From: Dehalogenimonas lykanthroporepellens BL-DC-9
GTDB lineage: Bacteria; Chloroflexota; Dehalococcoidia; Dehalococcoidales; Dehalococcoidaceae
Assembly: GCA_000143165.1 (NCBI GenBank)
Contig: CP002084.1
Span: forward strand, 434,001 to 498,000
DNA: 64,000 nt
Direction: 5' to 3'
The notes below the pieces were generated by a model. It worked only from the letters and a program-made list of their open reading frames with translations, ran no database searches and was not told where the DNA came from. Shown here piece by piece: positions 2,971 through 28,917 of this stretch (position 1 is its first letter; each line of letters starts with the position of its first letter). The position numbers and the translations under genes were made by a program.

Positions 2971-4345
2971 GGTAGTGTCCCGTCAAGTGGTGTAAATTCA
3001 TCATTGGTGGTTTCCCGAATAATCAAGCTGGTAAAGCCATGATCAGGGGTTCCTCCTGCGCCCCTTCCAGCGTTTTCTTCATCGAATCCAAAGAAAAGTA
3101 GCGTCGTCCGACCTCCCACTCGTCCTGCTGTTCCATTAACACCGCCCCAATCAGCCTGATTACCGATTGGCTGTTGGGAAAGATGCCGACCACATTACTG
3201 CGGCGCTTGATTTCCTTGTTCAGTCTCTCCAGGGGATTGGTAGAGTACAGTTGCCGCCAGTGTTCCCGGGGGAAGGCGGTATAGGCCAGGATATCCGGTT
3301 CTGCCTCTTCCAATTGGTCGGCCACAGGACCGAATCGGAGTCTGAGGTTATCGGCTACCCGGCGGAGCTGGCTGTAAGCGCTGTCGCGGTCAGGTTGAGC
3401 GAAGATGGTCCGGATAGCGGCAGATACCATAGCCTGGGCGCCCCGCGGCACTCTGGCCAGCGCATTGCGCATGAAGTGCACCCGGCAGCGTTGCCACGAT
3501 ACCCCGGTGAGTACCGTGCTGATGGCTTCCTTCAGTCCCAGATGAGCATCACTGATTACCAGCATCACCCCGCTCAAACCACGGCTGACCAACCCCCGCA
3601 GAAACTCTTTCCAGAATACACCGTCTTCACTGGGGCCGACCTCAAGCCCGATGATCTCGCGTTCTCCGGTTTCACGGACTCCGTAGGCGATAATTACCGC
3701 CTGACTGACCACCCGCCCTGAATCCCTGACCTTGACGTAGGTCGCGTCCAGCCACAGATAGGGATAACGCCATAACAAAGGCCGGTGGCGCCATCGTTCC
3801 ACTTCATCGTCCAGAGCCCCGCATATTCGCGATACCTCGCTCTTACTGACCCCGTTAAGCCCCAGTGACTGAACCAGAGATTCCACCTTGCGGGTGCTGA
3901 TGCCCAATACATAGGCTTCCTGGATTACCGCCAGCAAGGCTTGTTCCGCCCGGCGCCGGGGCTCGAGCAAGCTGGGGAAATAACTGCCGTCCCGCAACCG
4001 GGGAATCGCCAAGGGTATCGTGCCGGCCCGGGTGTCCCAGATACGCCCCCGGTAGCCGTTACGGTAGGTTAAACGACCGTTACTGCGCTCATGTTTCTCA
4101 GCTCCGGTCTTCTGCTTAACCTCAAGCTCCATGACCGCTTCGGCCAGCATCTTCACCCCTTCTCTCAGAAAATCAAGATCACCGTCACTCCCTGACTTGC
4201 GTAGCAGTTCCAAAAGTGTCATCCTGTCTTTGGCCATTGTTGTGGTTACCTCCTGAAAGTCTTTGTTGTTATTTTCTTTCAAGAAACCACACAATGGCCT
4301 GCTTTTTCAATTCCAGGAATTTACACCACGTACGGGGATTCTACT
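2971..4345 (-). mobile_element. IS256-type insertion sequence, copy 1 (1375 bp)
   Basis: The element is bounded by imperfect inverted repeats of about 29 bp: left GGTAGTGTCCCGTCAAGTGG..., right the complement of AGTAGAATCCCCGTACGTGG.... It is flanked by an 8-bp direct repeat ACGTTTTC (2963-2970 and 4346-4353), the duplication size expected for the family. It encodes one transposase on the minus strand. A nearly identical 1375-bp copy lies at 14952-16326. This copy landed inside a dispersed intergenic repeat and disrupts no gene. Confidence 0.95.
3023..4237 (-). CDS. IS256-family (MULE-like) transposase, copy 1
   Basis: DDE transposase of 404 residues. I chose the ATG opening MAKDRMTLLELL because AGGAGG lies about 10 bases upstream; an in-frame upstream ATG would add 19 residues without a ribosome binding site. 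Catalytic landmarks: first Asp in LWLDATYVKV, second Asp in VISDAHLGLKEAI, the Cys/His signature CRVHFMRN, and the Glu in STNPLERLNKEIKRR. It differs from the second copy at only a few residues (for example N/D in the KHERSNGR segment, Q/H in RRAEQAL, S/T in VRDSGRV, Y/C in DSAYSQL). The frame is open throughout, so it is probably active. Confidence 0.95.
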   Translation of the reverse strand: MAKDRMTLLELLRKSGSDGDLDFLREGVKMLAEAVMELEVKQKTGAEKHERSNGRLTYRNGYRGRIWDTRAGTIPLAIPRLRDGSYFPSLLEPRRRAEQALLAVIQEAYVLGISTRKVESLVQSLGLNGVSKSEVSRICGALDDEVERWRHRPLLWRYPYLWLDATYVKVRDSGRVVSQAVIIAYGVRETGEREIIGLEVGPSEDGVFWKEFLRGLVSRGLSGVMLVISDAHLGLKEAISTVLTGVSWQRCRVHFMRNALARVPRGAQAMVSAAIRTIFAQPDRDSAYSQLRRVADNLRLRFGPVADQLEEAEPDILAYTAFPREHWRQLYSTNPLERLNKEIKRRSNVVGIFPNSQSVIRLIGAVLMEQQDEWEVGRRYFSLDSMKKTLEGAQEEPLIMALPA

Positions 4346-13879: not shown

Positions 13880-13957
13880 ATGAAACATGACATCCGGCAG
13901 AGTCCGGATGACGGAGGGAAAGGTCGTAGCCCAAATAAAAACAAAAGGAGAATTTGA
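13880..13957 (+). CDS. 25-residue upstream ORF translationally coupled to rdhA
   Basis: A GGAGGAGG ribosome binding site precedes an ATG at 13880 that opens 25 codons (begins MKHDIRQSPDDGGKGRSPNK, very basic). The TGA stop at 13955-13957 shares its A with the rdhA ATG (TGATG). This may be a leader peptide that couples ribosomes onto rdhA or controls it. It has no recognisable domain. Confidence 0.45.
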   Translation: MKHDIRQSPDDGGKGRSPNKNKRRI

Positions 13958-14951
13958 TGTCTAATTATCACAGCACAATGTCCCGCAGAGATTTCATGAA
14001 AACCCTTGGCTTGGCCGGAGCCGGGCTTGGCGCCGCGGCGGCTGTAGCCCCGGGTTATACTGACCTGGATGAGGTAGTATCCTCGCCCAAGGGGGACTGG
14101 AAAAGACCATGGTGGGTTAAGGAAGTGGATAAGCCTACCGCTGAAGTTGACTGGCAGGTCATGCCGTATTTTGATAACCGGGAAACAATGTTTAACCCAT
14201 CAGCTTTTATCAGGCAAATAGGGCAGGACGAATATGACCGATTGAATCAGCTCAGCGCGACTAATCAAACTAACTGGGCTCAGGAGGAACGTCCTGGGTT
14301 TACTTTGAAGGATATCGCATTGGGAGGATCGGTTGGTTTCGGTTACGCTTACGGCATGAGAGCTCATTTTGTAGCGCCAAATGTTCCTCAACCCGAGGAT
14401 TATGGTGTCTCCAAGTGGCAAGGCACTCAGGAGGAAAATCTGCAAATGGTGCGAGTAGCAGCTCGTTTTTTTGGAGCCAGGGACGTAGGCGTCTATGAGC
14501 TTGATCAGAATACCCGTAAAACTGTGTATTCCTATGAAAGCGACGGCAAAGCCTATGAGTTTGAAAATGTTGAAAAAGGTTACGAAACTGATACCAAAAG
14601 AGTCATACCGGATAAAGCCAAGTATGTGGTGATTTTCACGGTTTTGGAATCCCAGGAAATGATGAAGCGGGCGCCGGATCAATTGAGTTCCGCAAGCGTA
14701 AGCATGGGGTACTACCAGGGCGCTATCGTGAACAACCGCCTGCAGAGTTTTATCAGCCGTTTGGGTTATAATTGCATGGCAGAGATGGGTTCCAACGCAA
14801 TGGTGCAGTGTGCCGGGGCGCAATCCCTGGCTGGCATTGCAGAAATTGGGCGAATGAGCCTGACGGTACTCAATCCCAATTTTGGGCCCATTATGCGCGC
14901 TTACAAGGTTATTACCGACCTTCCTCTTAAGCCTACCAGTCCGATTGATTC

Positions 14952-16326
14952 GGTAGTGTCCCGTCAAGTGGTGTAAATTCATCATTGGTGGTTTCCCGAA
15001 TAATCAAGCTGGTAAAGCCATGATCAGGGGTTCCTCCTGCGCCCCTTCCAGCGTTTTCTTCATCGAATCCAAAGAAAAGTAGCGTCGTCCGACCTCCCAC
15101 TCGTCCTGCTGTTCCATTAACACCGCCCCAATCAGCCTGATTACCGATTGGCTGTTGGGAAAGATGCCGACCACATTACTGCGGCGCTTGATTTCCTTAT
15201 TCAGTCTCTCCAGGGGATTGGTAGAGTACAGTTGCCGCCAGTGTTCCCGGGGGAAAGCGGTATAGGCCAGGATATCCGGTTCTGCCTCTTCCAGTTGGTC
15301 GGCAACAGGACCGAATCGGAGTCTGAGGTTATCGGCTACCCGGCGGAGCTGGCTGCAAGCGCTGTCGCGGTCAGGTTGAGCGAAGATGGTACGGATAGCG
15401 GCAGATACCATAGCCTGGGCGCCCCGTGGCACTCTGGCCAGCGCATTGCGCATGAAGTGCACCCGGCAACGTTGCCACGATACCCCGGTGAGTACCGTGC
15501 TGATGGCTTCCTTCAGCCCCAGATGAGCATCACTGATTACCAGCATCACCCCGCTCAAACCACGGCTGACCAGCCCCCGCAGAAACTCTTTCCAGAATAC
15601 ACCGTCTTCACTGGGGCCGACCTCAAGCCCGATGATCTCGCGTTCTCCGGTTTCCCGGACGCCGTAGGCGATAATTACCGCCTGACTGACCACCCGCCCG
15701 GTATCCCTGACCTTGACGTAGGTCGCATCCAGCCACAGATAGGGATAACGCCATAACAAAGGCCGGTGACGCCATCGTTCCACTTCATCGTCCAGAGCCC
15801 CGCATATTCGCGATACCTCGCTCTTACTGACCCCGTTAAGACCCAGTGACTGAACCAGAGATTCCACCTTGCGGGTGCTGATGCCCAACACATAGGCTTC
15901 CTGGATTACCGCCAGCAAGGCATGTTCCGCCCGGCGCCGGGGCTCGAGCAAGCTGGGGAAATAACTGCCGTCCCGCAACCGGGGAATCGCCAAGGGTATC
16001 GTGCCGGCCCGGGTGTCCCAGATACGCCCCCGGTAGCCGTTACGGTAGGTTAAACGACCGTCACTGCGCTCATGTTTCTCAGCTCCGGTCTTCTGCTTAA
16101 CCTCAAGCTCCATGACCGCTTCGGCCAGCATTTTCACCCCTTCTCTCAGAAAATCAAGATCACCGTCGCTTCCTGACTTGCGTAGCAGTTCCAAAAGTGT
16201 CATCCTGTCTTTGGCCATTGTTGTGGTTACCTCCTGAAAGTCTTTGTTGTTATTTTCTTTCAAGAAACCACACAATGGCCTGCTTTTTCAATTCCAGGAA
16301 TTTACACCACGTACGGGGATTCTACT
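14952..16326 (-). mobile_element. IS256-type insertion sequence, copy 2 (1375 bp), inside rdhA
   Basis: Same length, ends and orientation of transposase as the copy at 2971-4345. Flanked by the 8-bp direct repeat ATTGATTC (14944-14951 and 16327-16334). Intact ends, an open transposase frame and an exact target duplication indicate a recent simple insertion. Confidence 0.97.
15004..16218 (-). CDS. IS256-family (MULE-like) transposase, copy 2
   Basis: 404-residue DDE transposase, nearly identical to the product at 3023-4237, with the same catalytic landmarks (LWLDATYVKV, VISDAHLGLK, NPLERLNKEIK) and the same SD-supported ATG. Transcribed opposite to the interrupted rdhA. Confidence 0.95.
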   Translation of the reverse strand: MAKDRMTLLELLRKSGSDGDLDFLREGVKMLAEAVMELEVKQKTGAEKHERSDGRLTYRNGYRGRIWDTRAGTIPLAIPRLRDGSYFPSLLEPRRRAEHALLAVIQEAYVLGISTRKVESLVQSLGLNGVSKSEVSRICGALDDEVERWRHRPLLWRYPYLWLDATYVKVRDTGRVVSQAVIIAYGVRETGEREIIGLEVGPSEDGVFWKEFLRGLVSRGLSGVMLVISDAHLGLKEAISTVLTGVSWQRCRVHFMRNALARVPRGAQAMVSAAIRTIFAQPDRDSACSQLRRVADNLRLRFGPVADQLEEAEPDILAYTAFPREHWRQLYSTNPLERLNKEIKRRSNVVGIFPNSQSVIRLIGAVLMEQQDEWEVGRRYFSLDSMKKTLEGAQEEPLIMALPA

Positions 16327-16797
16327 ATTGATTCCGGCATGATGCGATTCTGCAAGACCTGTATGCTGTGCGGCGACGCCTGTCCGTCCGGCGCTATCAG
16401 CATGGAAGAAGAACCCTCCTTTGATATCCAGGGGCCGTGGAATAAACCGGGTATCAAGAACTGGTACTATAACGGTGCCAAGTGTTTGTCCTGGTGGCGC
16501 AACGTTACCACCGGTTGTTCTACCTGCCGATCGGCTTGTCCGTTTGCCGCCAAGAGTCATGCGTCAATTCATGATTACGTGGTCAAACCGGTCCAGTCGG
16601 TAACGCCTTTGTTCAACGGCTTCTTTGCTGAAATGGACAAGTTCTTCGGGTATGAAGGTATGGATGAAAACGGTTTCTCAACCCGTGAACGTGAACAGAG
16701 CTGGTGGGATCTAAGCAATGCGCCGGTCTATGGTTTTGATACTGCCAGATACGCATTGAAACTGCAGTGAAGCCAGTAAATTAACCCTAAAAGGCGG

Positions 16798-16836: not shown

Positions 16837-17069
16837 TTGGTAATATTATATCTGTGTCAGGTTGTTAGAAATAACAATATAGTCAAGGACAAGAAACACG
16901 AAAAGTTTTATTCAGGAAATATAAGGTAAAAAAAGATAAGGGAAAGAGTATTGGCAAAAAACCCCGCTACGCTATTATCTGGATAAATTCATCACTGACC
17001 CCGAAAAGTCCCATATGTATTGGACCCTTACAAATGGTTGACACCAGGCCGGCTTGAGAATATAATCCC

Positions 17070-17205
17070 GGTAACTCCGCTGAAATGGCGGTGACTCTTC
17101 GAGTTCCGCAGGCCTAAAACTAAAGGTCAGGGCCCCGGAACCGGTGAGCCGCAAGGCTCCGAGGGTACAGGTGGAAACGCCGGTGCCTCCCGTATTTGGA
17201 AAGGA
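17070..17205 (+). ncRNA. Molybdenum-cofactor (Moco) riboswitch, orphaned
   Basis: The 3' segment GCCTCCCGTATTTGGAAAGG matches the diagnostic 3' core of the Moco RNA motif known from the E. coli moaA leader almost exactly. The GGCGGTGACTC hairpin region and the GAGCCGCAAGGCTC hairpin also fit its architecture. GGAAAGGAG overlaps the Shine-Dalgarno sequence of an ATG at 17214, but that frame stops after 13 residues (TGA at 17253-17255). No Mo enzyme or Moco biosynthesis gene follows directly, so the switch appears cut off from its original gene. The 5' boundary is approximate. Confidence 0.8.
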
Positions 17206-17430
17206 GAGAGACGATGACATTTGCCTTAAGGCACAGGGAGACGCTTAATTTCTGAGTGTTTCCTTTACCATTTTTTCCGTCATTCCGTTCTTTTCCACAT
17301 TACCGAAGGGTCGCTTCCGTTTGAGCGAGAGAATTTGCTCAGGAGGTCGATCAGCACACCCGGGCACCCGGCCCGACGAAGTTCTGGATCGTTCCAGTTC
17401 AGCTGTGGCCGGTGTCATTCATGTTGTTCC

Positions 17431-17651
17431 CGGGGAGTGGAATAGGGCGGAATTCGGTTTTCCGGCGCAAGTCTCCCGGTAACGGTCGTGTACCCTCCCG
17501 GCGGTTATCGGTGGTAGCGGAGCTGTGAAAAGCGGCCTTACGGTCGTACCTGGGTCACGCCGCAAGGGTCGGCAGGGGGTCCGGCAATCTCCTTGCCATC
17601 AGACCCGGCGGCAGGATCTTTCCCGAAAGTCCGCTTTATTCCACTCCCGTT
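17431..17651. ncRNA. Candidate structured RNA of unknown class
   Basis: No gene is visible here. Twelve-base arms at 17433-17444 and 17637-17648 are perfectly complementary, and GCGGA/TCCGC (17447-17451 and 17630-17634) extends the helix. The enclosed segment of about 180 bases is GC-rich and contains further hairpins, such as GGGTC...GACCC enclosing GGCAA/TTGCC near 17578-17607. It does not match the RNase P, SRP, tmRNA, 6S, cobalamin, TPP or T-box features that I know. A TATAAT box at 17693 suggests the next gene has its own promoter, so this could be a separate RNA; strand is not certain. The stretch 17256-17430 holds nothing I can assign. Confidence 0.45.
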
Positions 17652-17721
17652 GTTTCTATGGATAAATTACACAGAAATCTTGCCCTCGGTAGTATAATAA
17701 TCGTAGTAAAAGGAGGGCGTT

Positions 17722-17928
17722 ATGCTCAGTGCCAGAAATCAGTTCAAGGGTATCGTTAAAAGTATCAAGCTGGGAACGGTTATGGCCGAAGTGGTCGTCG
17801 AAACCGGAGGTCTGGAAGTGGTCAGCGTAATTTCACGGGCTTCCGCCGAGTCGATGAACCTGAAAGAGGGTGATGCCGTTACCGCCGTCATCAAGTCCAC
17901 CGAGGTGATGGTCGCCAAAGGACTTTAG
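17722..17928 (+). CDS. Molbindin (Mop/TOBE-domain molybdenum-pterin binding protein)
   Basis: 68-residue single TOBE domain. Family hallmarks: SARNQFKGIVKSIKLGTVMAEV, then ISRASAESMNLKEGDAVTAVIKST. Molbindins store or buffer molybdate/tungstate in the cytoplasm. AAAGGAGGG precedes the ATG, and a terminator follows at 17971. Together with the upstream Moco riboswitch it indicates local molybdenum metabolism. Confidence 0.93.
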   Translation: MLSARNQFKGIVKSIKLGTVMAEVVVETGGLEVVSVISRASAESMNLKEGDAVTAVIKSTEVMVAKGL

Positions 17929-28600: not shown

Positions 28601-28634
28601 TAAATTAACTTAAAAATTTAACAGCGTTGATCCA

Positions 28635-28917
28635 GACGAGTACGTCGCTGGCGGGCTTCAGAGAGCCGGGTAAGGTGTGAGCCGGTAGTTGCGCAGAGGC
28701 CGAATGGACTGGGGAGCTTCAGACCGAAAGCGTTAAGCGAGTAGGCTCTGACGGAAAGGGCGCCGTTAGCCGGCCCAGGGTATCGCCATACCTGAGAGTA
28801 TGCGCCGTATCCGACAAATGAGATGGTTTTTTACCTGTCGCAAGATTTGTAATAAACCGAACCAGGGTGGCACCGCGAGATTTAAAGCTCTCGCCCCTAG
28901 TGGGCGGGGGCTTTTTT
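28635..28917 (+). ncRNA. tRNA-Trp-sensing T-box riboswitch
   Basis: Leader with stem I elements (GAGAGCCGGG, GTGTGAGCCGG), a probable UGG (Trp) specifier in GCCGAATGGACTGG (28699-28712), the AGTAGG motif, and the T-box AGGGTGGCACCGCG at 28864-28877. The antiterminator bulge reads UGGC, whose last base would pair with the G discriminator of tRNA-Trp. The competing terminator is GCTCTCGCCC/GGGCGGGGGC (28887-28911) followed by T6. Uncharged tRNA-Trp should allow read-through into trpE at 28939. Confidence 0.92.

Follow-up and report, generated by a model that had tools for sequence, protein, structure and literature searches.

The locus analysed here raises the question of what a well-preserved molybdenum cofactor (Moco) riboswitch may control if the open reading frame behind it ends after only 13 codons. 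It lies in a stretch of 64,000 nucleotides from Dehalogenimonas lykanthroporepellens BL-DC-9 (contig CP002084.1, positions 434,001 to 498,000), referred to below as the window, and a preliminary description had taken it for an orphan switch driving a stub. The reading favoured here, to which we assign a probability of roughly 0.6, is that a Moco riboswitch with a leader ORF and an intrinsic terminator as its expression platform heads the rest of a tungstate/molybdate (wtp) operon, represented by mop, and acts as a ribosome-dependent OFF switch.

Results

The riboswitch and its leader ORF

The following elements make up the 5' part of the locus:

17038..17066, + strand: sigma-70 type promoter TTGACA-17 nt-TATAAT, 12/12 consensus matches, just 5' of the aptamer
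17085..17222, + strand: Moco riboswitch aptamer with P3 (RF01055, 75 bits)
17198..17208, + strand: Shine-Dalgarno sequence (SD) of the leader ORF, GGAAAGGAGAG, from the Rfam alignment and MFE fold
17214..17255, + strand: leader ORF of 13 codons, MTFALRHRETLNF followed by a stop, read from the sequence; ATG 7 nt past the AAGGAG core of the SD
17235..17265, + strand: terminator-like hairpin of 13 pairs with a loop of 5, then an interrupted U tract to about 17273; dG -15.7 kcal/mol

That the switch is genuine, as had been proposed, was borne out by a cmscan covariance-model search of the window, in which the match to RF01055 scored 75.0 bits, well above the gathering score of 36 (E-values of 2.7e-16 for the window and 1.7e-18 for the genome), and extended over model positions 1-135, the complete length of the model. 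The ribosome binding site is sequestered as claimed, because GGAGAG at 17203-17208, a part of the SD, represents the 3' strand of P1 and is paired with CUCUUC at 17095-17100, as shown by the Rfam alignment as well as by the MFE fold; a calculation of how far the SD is unpaired gave no informative change along the growing transcript. The P3 stem is visible in the alignment of the window aptamer; Regulski et al. 2008 (PMC2408646) suggest that aptamers without P3 might be those binding Tuco. The genomic context also fits the family, with Mo/W genes located downstream (mop in the window, and a lipoprotein-wtpABC-mop series in the related genome G006), and we infer Moco as the putative ligand. Three Moco riboswitches are present in the genome containing the window (G000; 1,686,510 bases), the second of which is followed by a gene for a TupA-like protein; TupA-like sequences also occur at most other loci tested. 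Similar promoters directly precede the orthologous switches of G006 and a further relative, G001.

The ORF behind the switch indeed stops after 13 codons (ATG at 17214, stop at 17253-17255), and its stop codon coincides with the edge of the hairpin loop. No long ORF follows the aptamer in any frame, and none is revealed by correcting a frameshift; this and the occurrence of leaders at the same place in many Moco switches of the order led us to reject a truncated or frameshifted gene. The ortholog in G001 likewise carries an ORF of 13 codons at the same place with an unrelated sequence (MKRIYSCVEMPIS followed by a stop), so the leader amino acids are not conserved, and that in G006 starts with GTG and ends after 7 codons, ahead of the loop. 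As judged from these comparisons, the 13-codon ORF is a leader and not a truncated gene. The hairpin and its U tract are probably the expression platform, noting that hairpin hits in this stretch of the window were not above the number in shuffled sequences. The orthologous hairpins in G006 and G001 show cleaner U tracts than the window, whose tract is interrupted (CCTTTACCATTTTTT), and the window terminator may therefore be weak.

Leaders of related Moco switches

A view on the relatives shows that such leaders are common. Within the genus, 19 Moco loci were found in seven of the eight genomes, most of them with the same succession of aptamer, SD in P1, mini-ORF, hairpin with U tract and gene, and many Moco switches of the order carry an SD-gated mini-ORF ahead of or on a terminator. 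At many loci of the order and class, the 5' arm of the terminator contains the sequence GCnCCTCC, which reads Ala-Pro-Pro after an Arg codon in the leader frame. The resulting RAPP motif is known to stall ribosomes (PMC10951233, PMC7897499). The arrest by RAPP and RGPP is robust, refractory to EF-P and tolerant of varied N-terminal sequences in vitro, and the motif is under-represented in or excluded from proteomes (PMC12992588; figure EV2 covers Chloroflexota).

The statistics on this motif are based on 40 unique loci with GCnCCTCC past a Moco SD, comprising 39 from Dehalococcoidia or unclassified Chloroflexi and one actinobacterial pattern match (L171), which belongs to the out-of-frame set; start codons were assigned by rule, and the extraction pattern missed some loci. 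An ATG occurs 3-13 nt past the SD at 29 of the 40 loci, and 25 of these 29 leaders read the Ala-Pro-Pro frame (binomial p 6e-9; 13 v 3 and p 1e-4 if collapsed by genus), with the reservation that all p values given here, including the genus-collapsed ones, are optimistic because the loci share common ancestry. Open ATG leaders in this frame are present at 25/40 loci, compared to 1.9 +/- 1.3 in spacer shuffles (maximum 8 in 2000). The codon preceding GCN-CCT-CC specifies Arg in 21 of the 25 in-frame cases, but only in 3 of the 15 out-of-frame or leaderless ones (p 1e-4; by genus 12/13 v 3/12, p 9e-4), which amounts to RAPP-containing leaders at 21 of the 40 loci. Five different Arg codons are used (AGA 9, CGC 5, CGT 3, CGA 3, AGG 1): the triplets starting with A always end with a purine (10/10) and never read as Ser (AGY), whereas those starting with C end with a pyrimidine in 8/11 cases (p 0.001). 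This mixture of synonymous Arg codons without AGY indicates selection on the amino acid rather than on the hairpin. Moreover, among 40 terminator-bearing ATG loci, a stop codon of the leader frame falls into the terminator loop in 16, versus 5/80 for the other two frames (p 1e-5). The signal is contributed by the RAPP class (13/24 v 3/48); a general rule for non-RAPP leaders was rejected, as their values are not significant (3/16 v 2/32, p 0.2).

These patterns argue strongly for translation of the leaders of the RAPP subgroup. The genes following them mostly start with one for a TupA-like substrate-binding protein, whose copy in G000 matches the TupA model with a score below the cut-off. None of the few Moco loci inspected elsewhere in the phylum, outside Dehalococcoidia, showed a RAPP leader. 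In the window, the motif is absent from the leader MTFALRHRETLNF, and the tup leader of the same genome reads VAPP instead of RAPP; translation of the window's own non-RAPP leader is only suggested by the sequence.

A second group of RAPP leaders occurs in family f36, where three longer leaders with TTG start codons encode the motif (CGT GCA CCG CCT in G092 and G095, CGT GCC CCG CCC in G113); the leader of G090 reads RASP, and in G094 the frame is lost. A standard terminator was not seen in this group. At the f36 loci of genus g54, the RAPP element can form base pairs with the sequence around the SD of the following gene, and the RAPP codons would therefore again be part of the 5' strand of a hairpin with an inhibitory effect. 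Other leader types were also encountered: family f15 (L249, L297, L228) shows longer Moco leaders with seemingly conserved amino acids (..RAHxxxxHHLSPAYRRLxxSLS..) and no clear terminator, and in other Dehalococcoidia (L335 1595, L217) a Moco leader MGNKLRIMLGRPPPD followed by a stop, which contains RPPP, is located 3' of a tandem Moco switch.

An alternative is a classical attenuator consisting of RNA only. The P1 3' strand with its AAGGAG would then pair with CUCCUU of the terminator 5' arm as an antiterminator if Moco is absent, and the mini-ORFs would be fortuitous or harmless. Several Moco loci of the order without a usable leader, and some without RAPP, have indeed retained a CCTCC arm able to pair with the SD, and where no in-frame leader exists, more positions of this arm are complementary to the SD strand (7-8 pairs in 12/15 loci, versus 6/25 in-frame RAPP loci); terminator-type Moco switches are already known as well (PMC2408646). 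The relatives without ORFs therefore seem to employ such an antiterminator. Yet the conserved frame, the mixed Arg codons and the loop stop in the leader frame only are left unexplained, and the terminator 5' arm of the window (AGGGAGACGC) offers no CUCC for pairing with the SD. As an account of the window, RNA-only attenuation appears rather unlikely.

The shortened operon behind the leader

Downstream of the hairpin, an intact gene and the remains of others were recognized:

17298..17345, + strand: leader/RBS remnant of a lost gene for a molybdopterin-domain lipoprotein, start codon gone (alignment with G006)
17433..17522, + strand: wtpA start remnant (RBS, signal peptide and lipobox region), 82-83% identity to G001 and G006 over 54-57 nt
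17433..17648, + strand: extended hairpin region with a 19-bp inverted repeat at its base (17433-17451 / 17630-17648)
17722..17928, + strand: mop, molybdate/molybdopterin-binding protein of 68 aa (PF03459, E 4.5e-17; TIGR00638)

The preliminary description had regarded the DNA behind the 13 codons as non-coding and the switch as an orphan or a stand-alone sensor. These views do not hold, since the terminator-like hairpin is followed by an intact mop gene. This gene starts 466 nt past the leader stop and has its own SD, and a search of the DNA between leader and mop yielded no promoter-like site. The Mop protein passes the curated cut-off of TIGR00638 (68.5 vs 55 bits), and the gene is under strong purifying selection, as judged from pN values of 0.11-0.18 versus pS values of 0.62-0.85 in the genus. 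The suspected gene loss is correct insofar as the genes for the lipoprotein and wtpABC, which are present in G006, are gone; it does not apply to the 13-codon ORF itself. In G006, the orthologous leader precedes five genes, coding for a lipoprotein with a molybdopterin domain (PF00174), WtpA (above the cut-off of TIGR03730), a WtpB-like permease, an ABC ATPase at the position of wtpC, and Mop. The ABC genes are missing from both the window and G001. With mop intact and wtp remnants between it and the leader, the locus represents a switch with an operon cut down rather than a switch without genes, and mop is the surviving operon gene and probably the target of the switch.

The structured sequence noticed earlier downstream of the ORF was recovered at 17420-17660 (z -5.3) and overlaps the wtpA remnant. 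A second riboswitch or another known ncRNA at this place was rejected, since Rfam searches up to E 5 yielded weak chance matches only and the DNA search led to the 5' remnant of wtpA. The counterpart of the inverted repeat in G001 is an 11-bp stem (L028 3563-3573 / 3797-3807), and the repeat sequences, GGGAGTGGAATA... in the window and GGGAGCGGAAC... in G001, differ by a paired change from T-A to C-G on both sides. The wtpA-derived block (window 17466-17522; L028 3595-3650; L027 2776-2828) is 82-83% identical, versus 70-73% for the mop coding sequences, despite near-saturated synonymous sites, and the aptamer contains a complement of its core TGTACCCTC, namely GAGGGTACA; this block may have a function at the RNA level. 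In G003 (L029 3242-3959), the orthologous Moco switch and a leader reading MGAKHLFRGAS followed by a stop are succeeded by an ORF of 136 aa in place of wtp/mop, which by eye resembles a Fur-type regulator. Elsewhere in the window, an rdhA gene for a reductive dehalogenase is split (13954-16770) into an N-terminal part (13954-14976) and a C-terminal Fe-S part (16339-16770) by a Mutator-family (IS256-like) transposase gene on the minus strand (15004-16275), and a T-box leader (RF00230, 98.8 bits) is located at 28618-28901.

The losses may also be taken to mean that switch and leader are neutral remains of a decaying operon and that mop is expressed independently, an assumption in line with the lost operon genes, the interrupted U tract, the disruption of the adjoining rdhA by a transposase and the regulator-like ORF now headed by the orthologous leader in G003. 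We consider it quite unlikely, because the promoter matches the consensus at every position, neither the aptamer core nor P1 is damaged (75 bits) and mop has been conserved; moreover, the synonymous sites between G000 and G001 are close to saturated (pS 0.84), and an unconstrained leader would be expected to have drifted much further. A relay in which the leader acts on the next gene by reinitiation or coupling, as known for ppe2 of Mycobacterium tuberculosis (PMC11260477), is highly improbable for the window, with mop at 466 nt and an SD of its own, and fits tup-type loci poorly, where the leader is set apart from the gene by a terminator and tens of nt, although leader stops overlapping or adjoining the ATG of a moaA-like frame (ATGA; L034, L035, L039) suggest translational coupling at moaA loci.

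Discussion

The ribosome-dependent reading of the window may be summarized as follows. If Moco is absent, P1 would open and expose the SD, allowing a ribosome to load and to translate the 13 codons; a ribosome halted on the terminator hairpin would block its formation, and RNA polymerase would continue into mop. If Moco is bound, P1 would mask the SD, the leader would stay untranslated, the terminator would form and transcription would end, which defines an OFF switch. In the related switches, chiefly those before tupA-type genes for tungstate, the leader ends with Arg-Ala-Pro-Pro codons in the terminator 5' arm, which would park the ribosome there. For the window leader, which lacks RAPP, only the last step would apply, namely a ribosome reaching the stop codon on the hairpin; its translation, the arrest at RAPP leaders, the antitermination and the role of mop as target are all proposed from sequence.

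A more general proposal, for which we see about even odds, is a riboswitch-gated arrest-peptide attenuator, in which the switch admits or bars a ribosome that arrests itself by RAPP on the terminator arm. It would be widespread among the tungstate and molybdate genes of Dehalococcoidia, and f36 would represent a sister form, with the RAPP codons perhaps located in a hairpin masking the next SD. The nascent leader peptide could even serve as a second sensor. If true, riboswitches and arrest or leader peptides, which have been described apart so far, would be united in one unit, offering an explanation of how an aptamer masking an SD could control transcription and adding a ribosome-dependent type to the known expression platforms of riboswitches. 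The role of RAPP would be extended to metal-cofactor control, beyond protein export and copper, and "orphan" riboswitches before tiny ORFs may turn out to be complete devices. A search of the open-access literature turned up no work that combines a riboswitch with a leader of the arrest-motif type, which does not prove that none exists.

In attenuators of the trp/his type, the position of the ribosome on a leader ORF decides on terminator formation. These systems depend on codon-specific stalling at scarce aminoacyl-tRNA, whereas initiation on the leaders described here would be gated by an RNA-bound ligand. The Moco riboswitches of Regulski et al. (PMC2408646) share the aptamer, the location of the SD within P1 (an arrangement known from E. 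coli moaA), the association with genes for Mo/W transport and cofactor synthesis, and examples of the terminator type; in its searched passages, that paper describes RBS-type and terminator-type platforms and no case of an aptamer separated from its terminator by a leader ORF, whereas the hidden SD of the window serves a mini-ORF before the terminator instead of the regulated gene. The B12 riboswitches of M. tuberculosis with uORFs (metE, ppe2; PMC11260477) likewise mask the SD of a short translated uORF, and the downstream gene is expressed only if this uORF is translated in the case of ppe2, but they couple by termination-reinitiation at AUGA, whereas the mini-ORFs reported here overlap an intrinsic terminator and often end with RAPP. 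ApdA and ApdP (PMC10951233, PMC7897499) and the RAPP/RGPP ORFs of Streptomyces (PMC12992588) contain the same motif, again close to the C-terminal end of a short ORF 5' of the regulated gene. They are larger proteins, in contrast to the tiny leaders considered here, which carry RAPP at about residues 5-12, encode it by terminator-arm codons and depend on riboswitch-gated initiation, with a putative arrest at a chain of about 10 residues. Finally, the copper uORF CruR of Bordetella (DUF2946; PMC9426467) is likewise a RAPP uORF before a metal homeostasis operon, which it controls via Rho, and a stalled ribosome is proposed to stop termination; unlike in the present proposal, the nascent CruR protein itself is the sensor, termination is Rho-dependent and no riboswitch is involved.
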